From NCBI GenBank assembly GCA_024280475.1, contig JAJRQA010000128.1, positions 1-45,359 on the forward strand: a stretch of 45,359 nt of DNA, written 5' to 3'. Below the pieces are notes generated by a model. That model searched no databases and was not told the DNA's origin. It saw only the letters and a list, made by a program, of their open reading frames with translations. Each line of letters opens with the position of its first letter. The stretch's first letter is position 1. Position numbers and translations under genes: made by a program. Origin of the DNA: Alphaproteobacteria bacterium (GTDB lineage Bacteria; Pseudomonadota; Alphaproteobacteria; Rhizobiales; JAKIUO01). Shown piece after piece: positions 5,096 to 41,501 of the stretch.

Positions 5096-6930
5096 TAGAC
5101 CCGCACTTTGGGTTTGATATATTCGACCTCGTCGGTCATCGTGTAAGTGTGGACGGGACGCGAGCCGGATCTCACACTGTGCGTTGCGTCATCCACCCAG
5201 TGTAGGGAATGCACCATCCATTTTTCATCATCGCGGTCGGGATAGTCTTCGCGTGCATGAGCGCCGCGGCTTTCAAGACGGCCTCCAGCTCCCGCCATGG
5301 TGGCGACGGCCTGCAAGATGAGGTTCTCATATTCGAGGGTCTCGATAAGGTCGGTGTTCCAGATCAAGGATCGATCTGTAACCTTGATGTCGGCACCCTC
5401 TTCCCAGACCTCTTTCAATAATTTTGCCCCTTCGGCCAACACTTCACCGGTGCGGAATACGGCGCAATTGCTTTGCATGATTTTCTGCATTTTAAGGCGC
5501 AACTCGGCGGTTGGTGTATTGCCATCGGCGTTGCGCAAACGATCCAGACGCGCCAGCGCAAAAGCCCCGGCATCTTTTGGCAAATCAGCATGCTTACCAT
5601 TTGGCTCCAATTGCTCAACGCAGCGCTCGGCAGTGGAGCGACCAAACACCACCAGATCAATCAGCGAATTTGAACCAAGACGATTGGCCCCGTGCACGGA
5701 AACGCACGCGGCTTCGCCAATGGCCATCAGCCCCGGTACAATCGTATCTGGGTCCCCATCTTTTGCCGAGATCACTTCGCCATGAAAATTGGTTGGAATA
5801 CCGCCCATATTATAGTGGCAGGTGGGCAGCACGGGAATGGGATCCCGTGTCAGATCGACACCTGCAAAAATCGACGCCGACTCGGTAATGCCCGGCAAGC
5901 GCTCGGCCAGAATATCTGGATCAAGATGATCAAGATGCAAAAAGATATGATCCTTGTTGGGGCCAATACCGCGGCCTTCGCGGATCTCGATGGTCATGGC
6001 CCGCGACACCACATCACGAGATGCCAGGTCCTTGGCGCTTGGCGCATAACGCTCCATAAAGCGCTCGCCCTCAGAGTTGGTCAAATAGCCGCCCTCACCG
6101 CGCGCGCCCTCGGTGATCAACACGCCAGCTCCATAAACGCCGGTTGGATGAAACTGTACAAACTCCATATCCTGAAGCGGCAAACCGGCCCGCAGCACCA
6201 TGGCATTCCCGTCACCCGTGCAGGTATGAGCCGAAGTTGCCGAGAAATAGGTACGGCCATAACCTCCCGTCGCAAGGATGGTGCGATGAGCGCGAAAACG
6301 ATGCAAAGACCCATCTTCCAGACAAAGCGCAATGACCCCGCGACAAGCCCCGTCGTCGTCCATGATGAGATCAATGGCGAAATATTCAATAAAAAATTCG
6401 GCTGAATGGCGGATCGCCTGACCATAAAGCGTATGCAGGATGGCATGGCCGGTACGATCAGCAGCGGCGCAGGTACGCATGGCGGGCGGCCCCTCGCCAT
6501 ACTCTGTCGTCATACCACCAAATGGGCGTTGATATATCTTGCCCTCATCATTGCGCGAAAACGGCACGCCATAATGCTCCAGCTCATAAACGGCGGCGGG
6601 TGCTTCGCGGCACAAATATTCAATACTGTCCTGATCGCCAAGCCAGTCGGAGCCCTTGACCGTATCATACATATGCCAGCGCCAGTCATCAGGGCCCATA
6701 TTGCCCAATGAGGCGGCAACGCCGCCTTGTGCAGCAACCGTGTGACTACGCGTTGGAAAAACTTTGGTAATGCAACCGGTGCGAAGCCCCGCTTCAGAGG
6801 CGCCAAGCGTGGCGCGCAATCCAGCGCCGCCAGCTCCCACCACCAGCACATCAAAATCATGATCAACGAAATTATAAACGCCAGGGCTAGCGTGAGATTT
6901 GTCACCATTCTTGTTGTTTTGTTCAGCCAC
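5092..6930 (-). CDS. sdhA: Succinate dehydrogenase flavoprotein subunit
   Basis: FAD-binding catalytic subunit of complex II, 612 residues, oxidising succinate to fumarate on the cytoplasmic face. The dinucleotide fold '[13 protein letters not shown]' is at residues 30-42. The His that carries covalent FAD is His63 in '[10 protein letters not shown]'. Substrate and FAD motifs follow: '[21 protein letters not shown]', split here as 'HPTGVYGAG' and '[11 protein letters not shown]', then '[15 protein letters not shown]' and '[19 protein letters not shown]'. Length and C-terminus are normal. The start is GTG at 6930 after GAAGG. The usual downstream partner sdhB is missing: the next gene is convergent. 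The gene lies 65 bases after a SUKH-domain gene rather than directly after sdhD. Confidence 0.97.
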
Positions 6931-26815: not shown

Positions 26816-29800
26816 ATGACACTTAAACAAAATTCCTCCGCCGCGATCAAACGATCCTTGGCGCCCCCCAAATTCCCATTTTCGGAGACGATCATGACCC
26901 CGCTCTGCTACATCAAACGAACTGCGATGATGATGATTGCCACGCTGTTCATCGCCTTGCTGCCAGGCTTTTCAACGCCGGCCAATGCTGATTTTGGATC
27001 GCCAATATTCCATAAATCCGGTCATCAGGTCGACTGTGACTATGTCGAGTTTAAGCTGACTTACACCAAGCCGAATTTTAAATGGCTTGATGAAGCGACA
27101 AAGGACAGTATTGTAGCTGAGGCGATAAGAATAAGAGATGTTCTGCCTGAAGGTCTTTCCATTGAAAGCGCTACCATTGCTGGTGACGTGACCGGCCCTG
27201 GTGGCGGCTTGATGCTAGCTCCTGAAATCCAGACGACAACTCATGCCAACGATACATTGGTTTGGAAAAAACTCCATTTGTCGAAAACGGACCTGGACGG
27301 ATTGGCAGATCCCGAAAACCGGCAGTTTACCATTACCATTTTGGCCAAAATAGACAAAAGCAAATTCGCCGTCCCAAAACTGATTTCCAATCAAGCCAAA
27401 GCCTCTGGTCCCTCGACCACTTTTTCTCATGATCCCGCTCTTCCCGAAGATGGCGATCCTGTCAATGGTGATCCAACGGAATTGCTGATTGATGTCAGTG
27501 ATTGTCCCGAAGATACCGGCGGCGGTGACCCTGTGGGAGACGTGTGCTTCAAAGTTATTAATGGCGAAGTCGAATGTGATCTCGACCACCCCGGTGACTT
27601 TATCTATAAAATGACCGTTGGTGCCGAATATGGCGGCAAGGTTATTGAACTCACCTCAACCACCCCCGGTGTTTCCATCTTCCCGCCCTCGCAGATTGTG
27701 CCTGCTGGCGGCGGCGTGCTTGCATGGAGCATTCATGGTGCCGTTCCTGGCATGAGCATACACCTCGTTGCCAATGGTCTCACTGATGGCGATGTCAAGC
27801 ATGTCGCTGGCCCCAAAGACGGCCTTGGTCTGTGCTGTGTGCAAAAAATCACCATTGTCATCCCTATAGATATCGATTGCCCCAAAAAGTGCGAAGAAGG
27901 CGATGAGGACTGTCCACCACCACCTCCTCCCCCCTGCGAGGAAGGCGATGAAGACTGTCCACCACCACCTCCTCCTTGTGATCCCGAGATCGAAATATGC
28001 GATCCACCAGAAGAAGACGGCAAGCCTGAGCTTCGCCTGGAGAAAAAAGTGATCGGCGAGTGGTGCCTGCTAGGCGTTGGCGTTGATCAGGCCCTGTGCA
28101 CTTATCAGATTCGTATCCGCAATGTTGGCAGCGGGGTCTATGCCGGTCCTCTGACGGTCCGTGATCGTTATCCAAATGGAGCGCCGATCAGCTCAAACTT
28201 CAGCCCTGTTCCCCCTTGGGCATGCGGCCCTGATGGCGCCCCGGATAAATTCGAGTGTACGCGCAATATCATTCTGCCACCAATGGCAGAAACTATTTTG
28301 ACGGTGGAAGCAGTGGTATCGAAAACCGACTATCCAAGTCGTGAGGTGAAAAACTGCGCCAAGCTGGAACAACAGGCGGGATCACCGACAAGCTGCGCGA
28401 TTGCCAAGCTGCCGGACCCCGATGACAATCCCAAAACACCGGATCTGAAACTTGCCAAGACATGTGAGAGCGGTCCGGTCGGCAGTTTTTCTCCGGCAAC
28501 CGTTACGTGTCGGATTACTGTCACCAATAGTGGAGCTGCCCCAGCTGTTGGCCCTATTTCGATCAATGATGTCACCACCTTTGTTGGCGGTGGCGGGGCG
28601 ATCACCATAGATAGTGTCACACCCGATGCACCGGCAGCCGACTGGACCTGTTCAGCCCTGCCCGCCGAAAACCTCAATTGTTCCATTGATGGCGCAAATG
28701 TTGGCCCAGGTGTTTCTCGTTATTTCGATATGAGTTTTAGCAGCATTGAGCTTACGCAACAGCGCTACAAAAACTGTGTTGAAGGACTGGTATCGGGCGG
28801 TGGTGATGTCCATACATTCGACAGCGTCTGTGTCGAAGGCGGTGCCGACGACCCTGCGGGACCGCCAGCTCCAAATGATCCAAACGACATCTCGGTTGAA
28901 AAAACCGGTGATAGCGTTTGTGACTCGGAAAATCCTTGTAACTTCGAAATCACGTTAAAAAATGGAAGCAATACCGACTTCAGTGGCAAGCTGGCCATTA
29001 TTGACGGCATTACCAACACCGCTGGCGGCCTTGTTCCAGGTGCCGGTATTACGGTCACTCCTCCATTTGGATGTGCGGTCGAACCAACCGCTCTGCCATT
29101 TGGTTGTGTCGCCGATGTTACGCTTGGGGCCGGTCAAAGCCGCACGCACAAGGTGATTGTCACTCTGCCTGAGAATGACAATAATGCGCCAGCCAACAGC
29201 TCGGTGCCACTCTCGTCGCCAACCGGTATGCGCAACTGCGTATTGATCGGCGAAGCTGGCATTCTAAGCGCTGATATTGGTGATACTCTTGAAGGTGCTG
29301 GATCGGCGCAGGCCAATGAGGGATCTCCTCGCTATGCCTGTCATGATTTCGATACTGAGGAAACCAAGGCCGAACAATGCACGAGTGGCATGGTGCTCAA
29401 TAATGCTGGCAATTGTCAGTGTCCTTCAGGCACCCGCTGGAATGGTCGTCGCTGCTTTAGCGATGTACCACCAATCAGCATCACTGATCCCATTCCGCCA
29501 GTGATCGGTAAAGACCCGGTCTGCCCGCGTGGCATGGATCGTTTCAACAGCTTCAAAGGCAAACCACTTGGCTATGCCTTGAAAACGGTACGCTCCAATG
29601 GCGGTTCGATCATTTGCGGTGAACCTCGTTGCGACCGTGGCTGGTCCCTCTATAAAAACCGCTCGGCAATCCCGCGTGACTGGACCAAGAAGCAGATCGG
29701 ACGTCCCAATAGTCGGTATAAATTCTGGTGTGCCAAAGCGGCCCAAAAACCGTCGCTACAATGTTGGAATGATAGCTGGACACAGATCAAGTCGAGCCAG

Positions 29801-31390
29801 GCCAGCACCTATCGTGCAAAACGCTATACCGTCAAACCACGTAGCAAGAACGGTCAAACCATCTGGTGCGCCCGCAAACGCCCCACCGTCAATCAATGTC
29901 CTTCAGGCTGGACCAAGTTCCCTGTTGGCCAAGTTCCCTCAGGCTGGAATTCGCTGAAAAGACTGTATGATAATGGTCGTTCAGTGTGCGCCAAACCTGG
30001 TACAGTTGTCACCCCTCCTCTGACTTGCTGGAGTGGCTGGACGAAAGTCTGGCTTGGTGAAGTGGCCAGCTACAAAGGCAAAGGCTATAAGGCCAAAAGT
30101 CGGGGCAAGGGCAAGCGGAAAATCTGGTGTGTCAAGCCCGGTAAACCACAAAGCTGTGTCCCTGGACCCAACGAGTACCGGAACAAACAGAACCAGTGCG
30201 TCTGCAAACGAAACTATAGCCGCGGTTCGTCAGGCATCTGTTTGAAAAACTTCACGGCGCCCCGCACGTGCGATAAACCGTGGAAACAGATCAGTCCTAA
30301 TCAAATCGGGACCTATAAAAACAAGGGCTGGAAGATAAAGAACCTTGGCGGCAATGGTATCGTACCTGTTATTTGTGCCAAACCCGGCGCGAAACAGTGC
30401 AAAGCTAACGAGGTGATGACCAGTGATGGCTGTCTGTGCAAAGCTGGCTATCAGCGCGATCAATATCGCCGTTGCGTCAAGAAACCGACCACACCGACAC
30501 TCGAGTGCCGCAAGGGTTGGAGCAAGGTGTCCCGGTCACGTCTTGGCTTCTTCAAGAAGCAAGGCTATAGCATCGAGCCTCGTGGCAAAGGCAATCGCCG
30601 GATCTGGTGTGTCAAACCTGGCAATAAACCAACCGGACCAACGATAAGTTGTTCGGGTGGTGGCAAGCCCATGCGCACATCTAGTTCGGTCAACGCACAA
30701 TGGTATTGCAGCTGTCCAAATGGTAAAAAAGCGGTCAAGGCTGGTAAAAACCACTATCGCTGTATCAACGTTGTGGTGCCGCAAACCTGTGCCAAGGGTC
30801 AGACCAAGGTAACGTCGAGTAAAGCATATCGCCGCTACAAAAATCTCGGCTGGTCCCTCTCTCGCAAGAAAGGCTATTGGTGTGGCAAACCCGGCAAGAT
30901 CGTCGTGGCACCGCAAACCTGCGCCAAAGGCCAGACCAAGGTAACGTCGAGCAAAGCATATCGCCGCTACAAAAATCTCGGCTGGTCCCTCTCTCGCAAG
31001 AAAGGCTACTGGTGTGGTAAGCCCGGCAAGATCGTCGTCAAGCCAAAACCGACCTGCAAAAGCATTGGTAAAATCGGCAAATGGCCCAGATGCCGTAAAA
31101 AGCCCGTCATCAGCACCAAGCCAAACAGGACTTGCGCGCAGATTGGCAAGATTGGTAGGTGGCCCAAATGCCGCAACAAGCCAATCATACGCAAACCGAA
31201 GCTGACCTGTGGCAAGATCGGCAAGATCGGTAAATGGCCGAATTGTCGCAACAGGCCGGTGATCAAGTTCAAGCCATCGAGAACCTGCAAGAGCATCGGC
31301 AAAGCAGGCAAATGGCCAAAATGCTACACGCTGAAAAAGGCTTTTAGGCCAAATATAAAGTTCAAGCCTAAAGGGCAGCAGATAAAATAA
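26816..31390 (+). CDS. Giant secreted protein with DUF11-like domains and cationic Cys-bounded repeats
   Basis: 1524 residues. The signal peptide ends at 'STPANA-DFGS'. Two starts are equally well served: ATG 26816 (GGAGGAAATA upstream) and ATG 26894 (GGAGACGATC); the second gives a normal 31-residue signal. Order: N-terminal domain (about 60-330), two 15-residue units CEEGDEDC-Pro6/7 (about 359-390), then three DUF11/Ig-like stalk domains (about 400-530, 540-690 and 690-860) opening 'PELRLEKKV', 'PDLKLAKTC' and 'NDISVEKTG'. Then about 650 residues of Cys-bounded, Lys/Arg/Trp-rich modules: long ones such as C-x-GW-K...KGY...IWCVKPG, EGF-like 'CQCPSGTRWNGRRC', two identical 43-residue modules (1322-1409), and four terminal 'TCKSIGKIGKWPRCR'-type units. 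No LPxTG or autotransporter barrel is present. The likely role is an extended surface or matrix protein binding acidic polymers; this is inference. Confidence 0.8.
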   Translation: MTLKQNSSAAIKRSLAPPKFPFSETIMTPLCYIKRTAMMMIATLFIALLPGFSTPANADFGSPIFHKSGHQVDCDYVEFKLTYTKPNFKWLDEATKDSIVAEAIRIRDVLPEGLSIESATIAGDVTGPGGGLMLAPEIQTTTHANDTLVWKKLHLSKTDLDGLADPENRQFTITILAKIDKSKFAVPKLISNQAKASGPSTTFSHDPALPEDGDPVNGDPTELLIDVSDCPEDTGGGDPVGDVCFKVINGEVECDLDHPGDFIYKMTVGAEYGGKVIELTSTTPGVSIFPPSQIVPAGGGVLAWSIHGAVPGMSIHLVANGLTDGDVKHVAGPKDGLGLCCVQKITIVIPIDIDCPKKCEEGDEDCPPPPPPPCEEGDEDCPPPPPPCDPEIEICDPPEEDGKPELRLEKKVIGEWCLLGVGVDQALCTYQIRIRNVGSGVYAGPLTVRDRYPNGAPISSNFSPVPPWACGPDGAPDKFECTRNIILPPMAETILTVEAVVSKTDYPSREVKNCAKLEQQAGSPTSCAIAKLPDPDDNPKTPDLKLAKTCESGPVGSFSPATVTCRITVTNSGAAPAVGPISINDVTTFVGGGGAITIDSVTPDAPAADWTCSALPAENLNCSIDGANVGPGVSRYFDMSFSSIELTQQRYKNCVEGLVSGGGDVHTFDSVCVEGGADDPAGPPAPNDPNDISVEKTGDSVCDSENPCNFEITLKNGSNTDFSGKLAIIDGITNTAGGLVPGAGITVTPPFGCAVEPTALPFGCVADVTLGAGQSRTHKVIVTLPENDNNAPANSSVPLSSPTGMRNCVLIGEAGILSADIGDTLEGAGSAQANEGSPRYACHDFDTEETKAEQCTSGMVLNNAGNCQCPSGTRWNGRRCFSDVPPISITDPIPPVIGKDPVCPRGMDRFNSFKGKPLGYALKTVRSNGGSIICGEPRCDRGWSLYKNRSAIPRDWTKKQIGRPNSRYKFWCAKAAQKPSLQCWNDSWTQIKSSQASTYRAKRYTVKPRSKNGQTIWCARKRPTVNQCPSGWTKFPVGQVPSGWNSLKRLYDNGRSVCAKPGTVVTPPLTCWSGWTKVWLGEVASYKGKGYKAKSRGKGKRKIWCVKPGKPQSCVPGPNEYRNKQNQCVCKRNYSRGSSGICLKNFTAPRTCDKPWKQISPNQIGTYKNKGWKIKNLGGNGIVPVICAKPGAKQCKANEVMTSDGCLCKAGYQRDQYRRCVKKPTTPTLECRKGWSKVSRSRLGFFKKQGYSIEPRGKGNRRIWCVKPGNKPTGPTISCSGGGKPMRTSSSVNAQWYCSCPNGKKAVKAGKNHYRCINVVVPQTCAKGQTKVTSSKAYRRYKNLGWSLSRKKGYWCGKPGKIVVAPQTCAKGQTKVTSSKAYRRYKNLGWSLSRKKGYWCGKPGKIVVKPKPTCKSIGKIGKWPRCRKKPVISTKPNRTCAQIGKIGRWPKCRNKPIIRKPKLTCGKIGKIGKWPNCRNRPVIKFKPSRTCKSIGKAGKWPKCYTLKKAFRPNIKFKPKGQQIK
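27890..27979 (+). repeat. 45-bp tandem repeat encoding CEEGDEDC-polyproline
   Basis: Two in-frame 45-base units start at 27890 and 27935. Each encodes CEEGDEDC followed by six or seven prolines. This makes an acidic, disulfide-capable, stiff hinge between the N-terminal domain and the DUF11-like stalk, in contrast with the strongly basic C-terminus. Confidence 0.85.
30779..31042 (+). repeat. 132-bp tandem duplication, protein-identical with silent differences
   Basis: Two 132-base units (30779-30910 and 30911-31042). The first 43 codons of each encode identical residues (PQTCAKGQTKVTSSKAYRRY and the following 23). They differ at eight positions, all silent third-base changes (for example TGT/TGC, AAG/AAA, GGT/GGC, GTG/GTC). 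Only codon 44 differs in amino acid. Confidence 0.95.
31048..31338 (+). repeat. Four C-terminal 'C-IGKIGKWP-C' repeats
   Basis: Four tandem units of about 25 residues at the very end of the giant protein: 'TCKSIGKIGKWPRCR', 'TCAQIGKIGRWPKCR', 'TCGKIGKIGKWPNCR' and 'TCKSIGKAGKWPKC', each followed by a basic linker (KPVI...KP). The motif, I-G-K-x-G-x-W-P between two Cys, looks like a minimal disulfide-closed binding module. Confidence 0.85.
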
Positions 31391-32404: not shown

Positions 32405-34075
32405 TTATCCGGCAAGCATATTCGCGACCTTGGAAAAACCAAGCTTGGTAATGGCAGGGATATATTTCAGATATTCGGAAAACAACAATTTCACCGTATC
32501 TTTATCCGACCACCATTGATCCATCTGCACGTTGGAACTGGCGACCCCATAGGCTCGAAGTTTTGCTGTTGGCATGGCGGACCGAAATTCGGCGATAGCC
32601 CGCGGCATATGATAGGAACTGGTCACGACAATCAAGGAGCGAAAACCTTTTTGGCGCGACCATGATCGCGCCTCGTGAGCATTGCCAATGGTGTCCTTGG
32701 CCGCGCGGCCAAGATCGATACAGCAGTTAAACAAGGGTTTGGCCCCAGGAAACAGTCTGGCGAGTTGCCCCACGGATGTTTGCGCATGCACGCCAGAAAT
32801 CAGCAAACGCTTGGCCTTTCCAGCTGCCAATAATTTGAGCGCCTTGTTGATACGTGACTTGCCACCGGTCAACACCACAATGCCATCCGCCTGCAGCACT
32901 GATTGTGCGCCACGATGATCAATCGAGCTCGCATAGATCATAAAACCCAGCCCAAACGCCAGGAACAACAAGAATGTGCTTTTTAGAATCACTCCCAACC
33001 CCCTGAACAAGCCACCTTTTGAGGATACCGCGCCATTTTCGACACGCCTCCTTCGGCGTGAGGATACCCCAAACTGCTTGCGAGGGGAATAGTTAGGGTT
33101 CGCTATGGTTCCCTCGGTATTAAGGATACGATCGACCCAATAGCTTGAAGTGAACATGCAAATGCCTGCAACCGCCACAACAATGAAGCCAAGCAGGCTA
33201 TAGCCGAAAAAATCAAGCTGTGCCGAACCTACGAGTTGCTTGATTTCAGAAGCAGTGACCGATCCGCCGCCAAGCAACTGGATGGCAAAAGGGGCAAAAA
33301 AGAACATCGCCCCTGCCGCCAGTGCTCCCAGCAGGCCGGAGCGTATACCAAGCGCCAGAAAATGGCGTTCAAATTCACTGGCGATGAATTTGCGTTGGGC
33401 TCCGACAAAATGCAGCACCTCAACAATTTCATGATTGGATGCCATTGCACTGCGCGCCGCCGACACAATGACGGCGATAGTGGCTGTGGCAACAAGGATC
33501 AAAATGCCAATACCTGCCACCGCTACCGAGCGGGTCAGGGATCTGATCTGCGACTGCCAGTGGCGGTGATCATCAAGCAAAACCCCATCTTGAAAGCGCG
33601 CTGACAGATTTTGCCGTACCCTTGACAGATCCGGAGGCCGGTTGCGGTCAATTTCGATGGCGATCAAACGCGGCACCGGCAGCCCCAACATACTATTATT
33701 TACACCAAGCCAGGGTTCAAGCAGAGCTGAAGATTCTGCCAGGCTAAGAGGACGGACCTGTTTGATGCCGACCTGACGTTTCAAAATTGAAGTTACCTGG
33801 GCGACTTGTTTTTCCATATCAAGTCCCTCACGCGGGGCGACCTGAACCGTTACTTCACTGGCAATATCATTATACCAGGCATCCGCCGACTGATTGACCA
33901 TATAGACCATACCCGCCGTCAGACAGGCTAGAAAGGACATGATGGAAATCACCGCCGTTAGCGCCCGCCCCGACACCGAACTTTGCGGGACAATCTGCGT
34001 CGACCCGGCCAGCTGGCGTCGCGGCCAGAAGGCCTCAGACACCCCCAGCACAAATGTCGTGGCAAACTGCTTCAT
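32405..34075 (-). CDS. ftsX: FtsX-YdcF fusion: division ABC-transporter-like permease joined to a DUF218 domain
   Basis: A single 556-residue reading frame that joins two normally separate genes. Residues 1-315 are FtsX: TM1 (about 38-60), a periplasmic domain (61-183), then TM2 (184-206), TM3 (244-266) and TM4 (290-312), with the conserved 'EIVEVLHFVGAQRKFIASEF' coupling helix that contacts FtsE. A basic linker 'GVSSRRRRRVENG' (about 336-348) leads to a fifth helix (361-384) and a YdcF/DUF218 domain (396-545): 'DGIVVLTGGKSRINKALKLL', 'KRLLISGVH', 'AKDTIGNAHEARSWSRQKG' and 'VTSSYHMPRAIAEF'. FtsEX signals to wall hydrolases during division. The extra helix would put the YdcF part in the periplasm, where such domains normally lie. 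The start overlaps the ftsE stop by four bases (ATGA). Confidence 0.92.
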   Translation of the reverse strand: MKQFATTFVLGVSEAFWPRRQLAGSTQIVPQSSVSGRALTAVISIMSFLACLTAGMVYMVNQSADAWYNDIASEVTVQVAPREGLDMEKQVAQVTSILKRQVGIKQVRPLSLAESSALLEPWLGVNNSMLGLPVPRLIAIEIDRNRPPDLSRVRQNLSARFQDGVLLDDHRHWQSQIRSLTRSVAVAGIGILILVATATIAVIVSAARSAMASNHEIVEVLHFVGAQRKFIASEFERHFLALGIRSGLLGALAAGAMFFFAPFAIQLLGGGSVTASEIKQLVGSAQLDFFGYSLLGFIVVAVAGICMFTSSYWVDRILNTEGTIANPNYSPRKQFGVSSRRRRRVENGAVSSKGGLFRGLGVILKSTFLLFLAFGLGFMIYASSIDHRGAQSVLQADGIVVLTGGKSRINKALKLLAAGKAKRLLISGVHAQTSVGQLARLFPGAKPLFNCCIDLGRAAKDTIGNAHEARSWSRQKGFRSLIVVTSSYHMPRAIAEFRSAMPTAKLRAYGVASSNVQMDQWWSDKDTVKLLFSEYLKYIPAITKLGFSKVANMLAG

Positions 34076-36900: not shown

Positions 36901-39507
36901 TTACAGTGAGCGCATTTCAACCTCGACACCATTCAAGGTGATGTTGCCGTTTTGGGTCGAGACATTGACCTCGTCGCCATCCTTGATTTTGCCGCCCAAA
37001 ATCAGCTCGGACATGGGATCTTGCAAGGCTTTTTGAATGACGCGTTTCAAGGGCCGCGCACCATAGGCCGGGTCATAGCCTTTATTGGCCAACCATTGCC
37101 TGGCATCCTCGTCAAGAGTGATGGTCATCTTGCGATCATCCAGCAATTGTTGCAGCCGTTTGATCTGGATATCGACGATGGAGGCCATCATGTCGCGTTT
37201 TAAGCGATGGAATAAAATGATCTCGTCAAGCCGGTTCAAGAACTCTGGCCTAAAGCCGGACTTGACCACCGCCATCACTTCATCACGCACCTCATCGACG
37301 TCTTGATCCTCGTTCAGATTGACTAGGAATTCGGAGCCCATATTGGAAGTCATGATGATCAGCACATTGCGAAAATCTACTGTTCGTCCCTGTCCATCAG
37401 TCAAGCGGCCATCGTCCAATACCTGCAACAAGACATTGAACACATCTGGATGGGCTTTTTCGATTTCATCAAATAAAACAACCTGATAGGGCCTGCGACG
37501 CACAGCTTCTGTCAACGAGCCACCTTCTTCATAGCCGACATATCCAGGAGGCGCACCAATCAGACGGGCCACCGAATGTTTCTCCATATATTCCGACATA
37601 TCAATGCGGGCCATGGCCGTTTCATCATCAAACAAGAAACTTGCCAGCGCCTTGGTAAGCTCGGTTTTACCGACCCCGGTGGGACCTAAAAACATGAATG
37701 ATCCAATGGGCCGATTGGGGTCTTGCAGGCCGGCACGAGCGCGGCGAACAGCTGTTGAAACAGCACGCACGGCTTCGCTTTGACCAATCACCCGTTTGGC
37801 CAACACGTCTTCCATTTTAAGCAGCTTTTCACGCTCACCTGTCAGCATTTTATCAACCGGAATACCAGTCCAGCGCGATACGACGCCCGCAATATGATCG
37901 GCGGTGACGGCTTCTTCCACCATCAGCTCACCATTGTCCTCATCGCCTTGCTCACGTTCTTGCAAACGCTTTTCAAGCTCTGGAATGGTGCTGTAGGAAA
38001 GTTCCCCAGCCTTTGACAGATCACCCTTGCGCTGCGCGCGTTCCAACTCGATGCGGGCGCTATCCAGCTGTTCCTTAATAGCCTGCGCTCCTGCCAGCTT
38101 GTCCTTTTCGGACTGCCAGCGACCCGTCAATGTCGCAGATTTCTCTTCCAGATCCGCCAGCTCTTTTTTAAGCGTTGCCAGCCGATCTTTGGAGGCGTCA
38201 TCTTCTTCAGCGCGCAAGGCTTCACGCTCGATCTTCATCTGGATGATGCGGCGATCAAGTTCGTCCAGCTCTTCTGGTTTGCTGTCCACCATCATACGCA
38301 GGCGCGATGCTGCCTCGTCCATCAGGTCGATGGCTTTATCTGGTAAGAACCGATCCGAAATATAGCGGTTCGACAGGGTCGCCGCGCTGACAAGCGCATT
38401 ATCTGTAATGCGTACGCCATGGTGCAGCTCGTATTTTTCTTTGAGACCGCGCAGGATCGAAATCGTGTCCTCGACATTTGGCTCGTCCACGAATACCGGT
38501 TGAAAACGCCGCGCTAACGCTGCGTCTTTTTCAACATGTTTGCGGTATTCATCAAGCGTCGTGGCGCCAACGCAATGCATTTCACCGCGCGCCAAAGCGG
38601 GCTTTAACAAATTGCCCGCATCCATCGAGCCTTCCGATTTACCAGCCCCGACAATGGTGTGCATTTCATCAATGAACAAGATGATCTGGCCATTGCTGTT
38701 TTCAACTTCGCTCAAAACGGCTTTCAGGCGCTCTTCAAACTCGCCGCGATATTTGGCCCCCGCGATCAGCGACCCCATATCGAGCGATAGCAGCTTTTTG
38801 TCCTTAAGGCTTTCAGGCACATCGCCCTTGATGATGCGCTGCGCAAGACCTTCGGCAATAGCTGTTTTACCAACGCCGGGTTCGCCGATCAGCACCGGAT
38901 TATTCTTGGTGCGGCGTGACAGGATCTGAATGGTGCGGCGGATTTCCTCGTCGCGGCCAATGATTGGATCCATCTTGCCATCGCGCGCCTGTTGCGTCAG
39001 GTCCTGGGAATATTTCTTGAGCGCGTCATAGCTTTCTTCGGCGCTGGCGCTATCGGCCGTACGGCCCTTGCGTAAATCATTGATCGCCGCATTGAGTGAT
39101 TGCGCATTGACGCCAGCGTCGGCCAATATGCGGCTCGTGCCCGCCGCTTTAACAATCGCCAAAGCCAGCAATAGACGCTCGACCGTGACATAGCTATCGC
39201 CGGCCTTGTCGGCGACTTTTTGCGCTTCATCAAAAACCTTGGCCAGCGCGGGGGTCAAGCTAACCTGTCCAGCCCCCCCACCTGACACTTTGGGTAATTT
39301 GGCAAGCGTCATCTGTGTTGCTTCAAGCGCCTGTTTGGAGCGGCCCCCGGCCCGGTCGATGAGACCAGCGGCCAGTCCCTGCTCGTCTTCAAGCAAAACC
39401 TTAAGCATATGTTCGGGAGTAAATTGCTGATGCCCTTCGCGAAGGGCAAGGCCTTGTGCAGATTGCAAAAAGCCCTTGGCACGATCGGTGTATTTTTCAA
39501 AATTCAT
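36901..39507 (-). CDS. clpB: ATP-dependent disaggregase ClpB
   Basis: An 868-residue hexameric AAA+ chaperone that rescues aggregated proteins with DnaK. The N-domain starts '[20 protein letters not shown]'. AAA-1 carries Walker A '[15 protein letters not shown]' and Walker B '[15 protein letters not shown]'. A complete coiled-coil middle domain (about residues 395-540) separates ClpB from ClpA/ClpC. AAA-2 carries '[15 protein letters not shown]' and '[15 protein letters not shown]'. The start at ATG 39507 follows GGAGAAG; an upstream in-frame extension has no ribosome site. A heat-shock-like promoter lies about 125 bases upstream. Confidence 0.97.
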
Positions 39508-39660: not shown

Positions 39661-39756
39661 CCCCTTGCGTCAATTTTACTTAATCATGATTTACATCTGA
39701 TCCAGAAGCGTTATTCTTGTTGTTAAAATGGTTTACGAGTTTTGGGGGATTTATTG

Positions 39757-40665
39757 ATGATACTATTATCTGCTTTCATTACATTGATTTGCGCGAGTTG
39801 TACGCCAGCAATTCAAACCATCCCACAGATAACCTCACACATCTTGACCATTCCCGTCGCCAAACGCTCGCGCCGTTCACGAGCATGGGCCATATGCCGC
39901 CGCAAATATGGCAAGAAACTTACCGGCGTAACGATGAAAAAGGGCAACCGGTTTATCTGCCACTATCGTAAAACCAAATCCCAAATACGCGCCAGCTGTC
40001 GCAGAAAATATGGCAAGCGTTTCATTAAACTTCTTAAAACCCGCAAGGGTTATGCTTGCAGTTTCAATTCCACTCGCAGGCAATTTATCAAACTTTGCAA
40101 ACGCAAATATGGTCGTCGCTATCTGCGCGTGATCCGCAAAAAGGGCCGAAATCTTTGTATTTACCAGGCAAGTAAACGACAGATGAGGCTTACTTGCAAA
40201 AAGCGTCATGGCAAACGGTTTCTTCGCCTGTCAAAAACCAAAGGCCGCACTCATTGCATTTTCAAAATAAATCGCAAACAGGCGCTGACACAATGCAACA
40301 AGACCTATGGCGATCGGTTTTTGCGCATGTCCAAAAACAGCAAGGGACGTTTTACCTGCTGGTACAGACCAAGTTTTGAACAAGCCGTCATCCAGTGTCG
40401 CAAAAATCACGGCAATAAGCTCATTGATGTCATTCGCAAGGACAAACGCTATGTTTGCCGGTTCACCCCTGATGCAACTACGGGAGGCGATAATTTCAGC
40501 ACTCCCGATGACCGGGGAGCAGATCCTGGAAAAGGTGGCGGTTTTAATGATCGTTTTGAGGAGCATGAACCCGGCACAAAGAAGCAGCTCGAACAAAATC
40601 CGGCCTTTCCCAGACCCAATAATCCATCTGTCACACCGGCTGATAAAAAGAATATCGAAGCCTGA
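39757..40665 (+). CDS. Secreted cationic protein with six 33-residue Cys-bounded repeats
   Basis: 302 residues, not matching any family I know. The start is ATG 39757 with GGGGGAT eight bases upstream. The N-terminal hydrophobic segment 'MILLSAFITLICASC' acts as a signal or anchor; the Cys are not in a clear lipobox. Residues 47-238 are six tandem units with Cys at 47/68, 81/101, 114/134, 147/167, 180/201 and 214/234: consensus C-R/K-R/K-K-Y-G-K-R-F-L/I-R-L-x-K-x-K-G-R-x-x-C-x-Y. The repeats are extremely rich in Lys and Arg. The tail (239-302) is Gly/Pro-rich and mixed in charge ('DDRGADPGKGGGFNDRFEEH'). Each unit probably closes one disulfide in the periplasm or outside. Binding of an acidic polymer (polysaccharide, DNA, teichoic-like or LPS phosphate) is the simplest guess. 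Confidence 0.75.
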   Translation: MILLSAFITLICASCTPAIQTIPQITSHILTIPVAKRSRRSRAWAICRRKYGKKLTGVTMKKGNRFICHYRKTKSQIRASCRRKYGKRFIKLLKTRKGYACSFNSTRRQFIKLCKRKYGRRYLRVIRKKGRNLCIYQASKRQMRLTCKKRHGKRFLRLSKTKGRTHCIFKINRKQALTQCNKTYGDRFLRMSKNSKGRFTCWYRPSFEQAVIQCRKNHGNKLIDVIRKDKRYVCRFTPDATTGGDNFSTPDDRGADPGKGGGFNDRFEEHEPGTKKQLEQNPAFPRPNNPSVTPADKKNIEA

Positions 40666-40715: not shown

Positions 40716-41501
40716 ATGACAGACAATAAACACCAACCGATCGAGCTGACTAAAATCACCCGCTATCCGGTCAAAGGGTTATCCCCGGAAACCCTGACAA
40801 GCGTAGAACTGGTGGCAGGCGCGACTCTGCCCTTTGATCGCGCCTATGCGATTGAAAATGGTAAAAGCCGGTTCGATCCGGCAAATCCAAAATATTTGCC
40901 AAAGGTCAATTTCTTGATGTTGATGCGCCATGAACGCATGGCCAAATTAAAAACCAGCTTTGATGATCACTCACAAACATTGACGATCGAACTTGAGGGC
41001 AAAATGGTCGCCAGAGGTGTGCTTGATACCAGTGAGGGGCGCCGCGCTATCGAAGATTTTATGGTCGACTATATGACCAGAGAGCTCAATGGAGCTCCAA
41101 AGATCGTTCATGGTATGGATCACAGTTTTAGTGATGTCTCCGCCAAATGCCTGCACATCATAAACCTCAAAAGTGTACGCGCAATCGAAAAATTTTCGGG
41201 CCGCACCGTTGACCCCTTGCGCTTTCGTGCCAATTTGATCATCGATGGACCAGATGCCTTTAGCGAACTCGACTGGGTAGGGAAAACACTCGCCAGCGAT
41301 AAGATCACCCTAAAGGTTTTCAAACGCACACAGCGCTGTCCGGCCACCAATGTCGATCCGCAAGAAGGCGTGCGCGACATGACCATTCCCGATCTATTAT
41401 TTGAGCATCTTGGCCATCGCGATTTTGGCGTTTATGCAAGCGTCAAATCGGGGGGCTCGCTCAAAGAAGGCGCAAAATTTTGCCTTCAGGGGGCAGAGTA
41501 A
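40716..41501 (+). CDS. MOSC-domain protein
   Basis: A 261-residue protein with an N-terminal MOSC beta-barrel domain ('ITRYPVKGLSPETLTSVEL', residues about 13-110) and a C-terminal MOSC domain (about 125-255) containing the conserved Cys in 'KRTQRCPATNVDPQEG' and 'DFGVYASV'. MOSC proteins bind molybdenum or iron-sulfur-linked sulfur carriers and include amidoxime reductases (YiiM, YcbX, mARC). No ferredoxin domain is fused, unlike YcbX. The VOC gene follows almost immediately (five bases), so they are cotranscribed. Confidence 0.88.
   Translation: MTDNKHQPIELTKITRYPVKGLSPETLTSVELVAGATLPFDRAYAIENGKSRFDPANPKYLPKVNFLMLMRHERMAKLKTSFDDHSQTLTIELEGKMVARGVLDTSEGRRAIEDFMVDYMTRELNGAPKIVHGMDHSFSDVSAKCLHIINLKSVRAIEKFSGRTVDPLRFRANLIIDGPDAFSELDWVGKTLASDKITLKVFKRTQRCPATNVDPQEGVRDMTIPDLLFEHLGHRDFGVYASVKSGGSLKEGAKFCLQGAE

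Follow-up and report, generated by a model that had tools for sequence, protein, structure and literature searches.

A six-unit, Cys-bounded repeat protein

What kind of protein does a marine alphaproteobacterium make from a short gene that appears to consist largely of basic repeats? The gene lies in a stretch of 45,359 nucleotides (the window) and is translated without interruption as a 302-amino-acid ORF (Table 1); on the reverse strand of the array, open stretches do not exceed ∼145 codons and give no sign of a gene. A sequence-only reading had proposed six units with Cys residues 20–21 apart and a period of 33–34, and self-comparison of the protein confirmed this. The array holds 12 Cys residues at successive spacings of 21, 13, 20, 13, 20, 13, 20, 13, 21, 13 and 20, i.e. 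one pair in each unit, as had been claimed. Upon scoring residues 36–240 against themselves (BLOSUM), peaks appeared at offsets 33 (score 172) and 66 (score 94), while none of 1000 shuffles of these residues scored above 23. Pairwise identity between the units is 20–40% at the amino acid and 36–53% at the nucleotide level, which indicates an old repeat rather than a DNA duplication artefact.

Table 1. Positions of the repeat gene, its parts and its neighbours in the window.
Feature	Position	Strand	Basis
ClpB chaperone, divergent neighbour of the repeat gene	36901..39507	-	ORF list; flank in gene-absence comparison
Shine-Dalgarno-like GGGGGA, 7 nt before ATG	39744..39749	+	read from sequence
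Six-unit cationic repeat protein, ORF of 302 aa + stop	39757..40665	+	frame conserved in L002 and L003; dN/dS 0.17–0.26
N-terminal hydrophobic stretch MILLSAFITLICASCT, putative signal sequence lacking a basic n-region	39757..39804	+	inferred from hydropathy, peak at residue 1
Unit 1 (Cys47/Cys68)	39862..39969	+	self-comparison, unit profile, full-length model
Unit 2 (Cys81/Cys101)	39964..40068	+	self-comparison, unit profile, full-length model
Unit 3 (Cys114/Cys134; Arg replaces Cys134 in the L002 ortholog)	40063..40167	+	self-comparison, unit profile, ortholog alignment
Unit 4 (Cys147/Cys167)	40162..40266	+	self-comparison, unit profile, full-length model
Unit 5 (Cys180/Cys201)	40261..40368	+	self-comparison, unit profile, full-length model
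Unit 6 (Cys214/Cys234)	40363..40467	+	self-comparison, unit profile, full-length model
Asp/Gly/Pro tail, residues 241–302, predicted disordered, mildly acidic	40477..40662	+	pLDDT 24–42; net charge -3; dN/dS 0.27–0.40
MOSC-like protein (name presumed), downstream neighbour	40716..41501	+	flank kept in 5/5 same-genus genomes

The extreme basic charge noted earlier holds for the array as a whole, which carries +64 (69 Lys/Arg versus five Asp/Glu; pI 11.5), but it is greatest in units 1–5 and drops to +6 in the last unit, and it is no trait of the wider family described below, whose units range from 0 to +14. The tail is indeed rich in Gly and Pro, but also in Asp.

Orthologs and selection

Two further genomes of the same genus carry orthologs of 80–84% identity, which also occur as the MAG contigs L002 and L003. 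Both same-genus orthologs keep the frame and all six units. At a synonymous divergence of ∼0.5, the gene is under purifying selection (dN/dS 0.17–0.26), with lower values in the array (0.14–0.22) than in the tail (Table 1). The charge is conserved as well: 60 of the 69 basic positions are basic in all three proteins, and their arrays carry +64, +63 and +61. Because the units cluster by position across species and are strongly divergent within one protein, the array must predate the split of these species. In the L002 ortholog (6001–6909), Cys134 of unit 3 is replaced by Arg, which leaves the array with an odd Cys count and implies that the bond of that unit is dispensable.

Loss of the pattern or of the frame in close relatives had been named in advance as evidence against a meaningful repeat. 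Neither ortholog shows such a loss, but a third same-genus genome (G004) has no repeat gene at all, although both its flanks, clpB and the MOSC-like gene, are present at a distance of 402 bp. That genome retains 208 bp matching the clpB-side intergenic region of the window and a weak 42-bp match to the 3′ end of the repeat gene (E 0.015), which suggests, albeit not strongly, that the gene was lost there rather than recently gained elsewhere. In a further genome of the genus (G003) no unit was found, and the two flanking genes lie on separate contigs.

An unnamed module of secreted proteins

The suspicion that the repeat belongs to no named family was borne out in Pfam, NCBIfam, PHROGs and PADLOC, none of which gave a match above curated cut-off over the array, and in PDB sequence searches with the whole protein and with unit profiles, which returned no match. 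The unit regions of the relatives are likewise unnamed in Pfam and NCBIfam. Weak Pfam matches (DUF5673, Gluconate_2-dh3, termicin and CaKB) lay far under cut-off and were dropped as annotation; a PADLOC match to LmuC (E 0.019) and a DUF3781 match in one relative (E 0.003) were set aside.

Profile searches with the repeat, a kind of check that had been proposed, revealed further unit-bearing proteins, all of them in the same order. The window protein alone, used as query, matches proteins with one or two units: small secreted proteins with two units each (L006 and L007), proteins with a single, C-terminal unit (L008–L010) and one protein in which two units accompany a FecR domain (L013/P0009; FecR E 1.4e-7). 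At L011, also matched by this query, there is no unit-like ORF. Profile A2, built from these units, added members that had played no part in its construction: secreted proteins of 1000–1400 aa carrying two to five units close to the C-terminus, as well as a pair of neighbouring genes for small secreted two-unit proteins in G246. Tandem members found with the unit profile start with classical signal peptides (P0004, MKKLFLIVALAGFALC...; P0005; both L062 genes). All 36 aligned units, drawn from many proteins, have both Cys residues, 20–22 apart. The window protein shows the same spacing together with the C[RK]xxYG-like helix end, and its array gives six unit-profile matches (E 1e-10 to 3e-14, values that partly follow from how the profile was built). 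Judged by these sequences, the module is real and previously unnamed in the libraries searched, and forms a new family of the small, presumably disulfide-stabilised repeat kind. Being a recognisable extracytoplasmic unit whose profile is clear and whose fold is confidently predicted, it allows anonymous secreted proteins of the order to be grouped.

The refined profile found nothing outside the order: among 385 genomes of the class and 398 of the phylum (draws that overlap the order), it hit the window genome alone. There was no plasmid match either. By eye, three such units can be discerned in a 1341-aa protein of G001, an assembly with ∼5% contamination; the protein is not present in the other four same-genus genomes.

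In L069 (7929–10606), a gene for FecR plus two units adjoins one for a single C-terminal unit plus an EGF-like Cys-rich stretch, which suggests a unit-bearing two-gene operon; G096 and G060 have a similar pair. At the C-termini of the large proteins from L058, L060, L061 and L063, the units are of differentiated types, usually in the order GYYAG, NGxGxYAGK and YGxRFIRL, and the six units of the window resemble the last of these.

Predicted fold and likeness to termicin

An AF2 model of two units, computed from nine rows taken from the window protein and its orthologs, has a pLDDT of 89 and predicts an α-β-β arrangement for each unit (helix 5–19, strands 20–26 and 29–34). The full-length model repeats helix-strand-strand six times with array pLDDT mostly at 80–90; its pTM of 0.42 means that the places of the units relative to each other are not defined by this model. 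The model puts the first Cys of the unit in the helix and its second Cys in the final strand, which makes a disulfide sterically reasonable. We infer one such bond per module, which would tie the helix to the last strand.

Foldseek searches of the PDB and of viral structures returned nothing at E ≤ 0.001. RRM and HMA rows for the full model were rejected as a generic β-α-β-β arrangement (RRM E ≥ 0.03, rmsd 18–28 Å). Among PDB chains, termicin alone reached VIA Z ≥ 2 against the two-unit model (Z 2.9, rmsd 1.9 Å, all 36 residues); its Foldseek match was not significant (target TM 0.68, prob 0.41, E 3.8), and the Pfam termicin model (PF11415, Toxin_37) touches the Cys helix of the unit below cut-off (E 2.7). 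The alignment spans 36 residues with equal ranges at an offset of 1, and would place the two Cys of the unit at termicin positions 11 and 31, which we take to be its third and sixth Cys. The third and sixth Cys pair together in termicin, and its strands (19–25 and 28–33) correspond residue by residue to those of the model (PMC4730610).

The predicted unit shares with the CS-αβ peptides (cis-defensins and termicin) an α-β-β order over ∼36 residues, with a helix Cys and a last-strand Cys, and the helix with two antiparallel strands is present in the two-unit prediction. However, CS-αβ peptides are single peptides with two to four Cys pairs, whereas the window unit has one pair and stands in a tandem array. 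The superfamily is defined by the CSH motif, in which a helix CxxxC is bonded to a last-strand CxC (PMC5116183). Neither CxxxC nor CxC occurs in any unit of the window or in any of the 36 aligned units; hence, we regard the modelled likeness to termicin as suggestive and not as homology. Bacterial peptides with a Cys-tied helix and hairpin offer a similar comparison: the two-disulfide AdDLP peptides of myxobacteria (PMC5116183) and five classes of bacterial defensins (PMC11561630) are small like the unit, but they are reportedly single peptides with CSH Cys pairs and two, or three or more, disulfides. The word 'tandem' does not occur in the text on the five classes (PMC11561630). It seems very doubtful that this module represents a minimal relative or precursor of the CS-αβ fold with a single disulfide, used by bacteria as a tandem envelope building block and here as a six-unit polycation.

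N-terminus and export

The N-terminus, earlier called signal-like, is hydrophobic but atypical: residues 1–35 contain no Lys or Arg. Cleavage near Ala13, or at a lipobox-like but non-canonical Cys15, is possible. The bacterial lipoprotein pattern, presumably that of PROSITE PS51257, calls for a canonical lipobox and a basic n-region, and here a Cys stands at -3 before Cys15 and the n-region has no basic residue. Export is nevertheless likely, judging from the relatives. It is plausible since these carry classical signal peptides and the window genome encodes both DsbA and DsbB, but not secure, since the window protein's own N-terminus lacks a positive n-region and departs from the canonical lipobox. 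Together with the family-invariant Cys pairs, the signal peptides of the relatives and DsbA/DsbB make an oxidised extracytoplasmic protein the best guess.

What the array may do

We give about an even chance to the reading that this is an exported protein of six 33-residue α-β-β modules, each with a single disulfide, which acts as a multivalent polycation on anionic polymers of the envelope or matrix. The module would be an order-level building block reused in several secreted proteins, of which one variant was amplified to six copies and enriched in Lys/Arg; the product would be a stable multivalent polycation. Such a protein would most likely bind LPS, exopolysaccharide or DNA, and either hold polymers together or be anchored there itself. 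Basic charge is kept among the orthologs and varies from neutral to strongly positive across the family, which points to the module as a scaffold and to charge as the specialisation of the window protein. If both the single disulfide and polymer binding hold true, the array offers a simple natural scaffold for stable multivalent polycations.

The location of the relatives leads to one alternative. Directly upstream of two large members lie a trypsin-PDZ (HtrA-like) gene and a Sel1/PDZ/peptidoglycan-binding gene, respectively, and these neighbours point to the periplasm or envelope, in line with the exported polycation preferred here. With the C-terminal position of the units in large proteins and in the FecR-domain protein (PF04773), this would suit an adaptor of envelope complexes, whose units dock protein partners such as periplasmic proteases and for which charge is secondary. 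A FecR domain is missing from the window protein itself. No such partner adjoins the repeat gene, and the orthologs have kept the charge of the array; we consider the adaptor unlikely. Nor do we expect the array to be an intracellular or membrane-anchored nucleic-acid-binding protein whose hydrophobic N-terminus is an outward-facing anchor, whose +64 repeats stay inside and whose Cys are unbonded, even though the absence of basic residues before the hydrophobic stretch and their abundance after it would, by the positive-inside rule, favour an inside C-terminus, and Foldseek does list RRM proteins. The relatives are clearly secreted, the Cys pairs are invariant as disulfides would be, and the RRM matches superimpose at the large rmsd given above; this reading is improbable.

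The termicin hits from structure comparison and Pfam, along with the strong positive charge, could instead mean that the units are reduced CS-αβ peptides in a defensin-like antimicrobial array, exported to damage competing cells. Besides the insignificant termicin scores and the missing CxxxC and CxC pairs, the large envelope proteins with low-charge units look non-antimicrobial, and the ORF list of the window has no immunity, processing or export gene adjoining the repeat gene. We therefore think this quite improbable, and retain the polymer-binding polycation as the preferred reading.

Other genes of the window

A 1524-aa secreted protein is encoded at 26816–31390 (+); it contains DUF7929 and matches DUF11 at a borderline level. 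Its C-terminal part contains two other basic, Cys-bounded repeat families, CxxGWxKV...RxIWCxKPG and CKxIGKIGKWPKC, neither of which matches the unit profile significantly. The ORF at 32405–34075 (-) encodes a 556-aa protein in which what we take to be an FtsX-like protein is apparently fused to a YdcF/DUF218-like C-terminal half.
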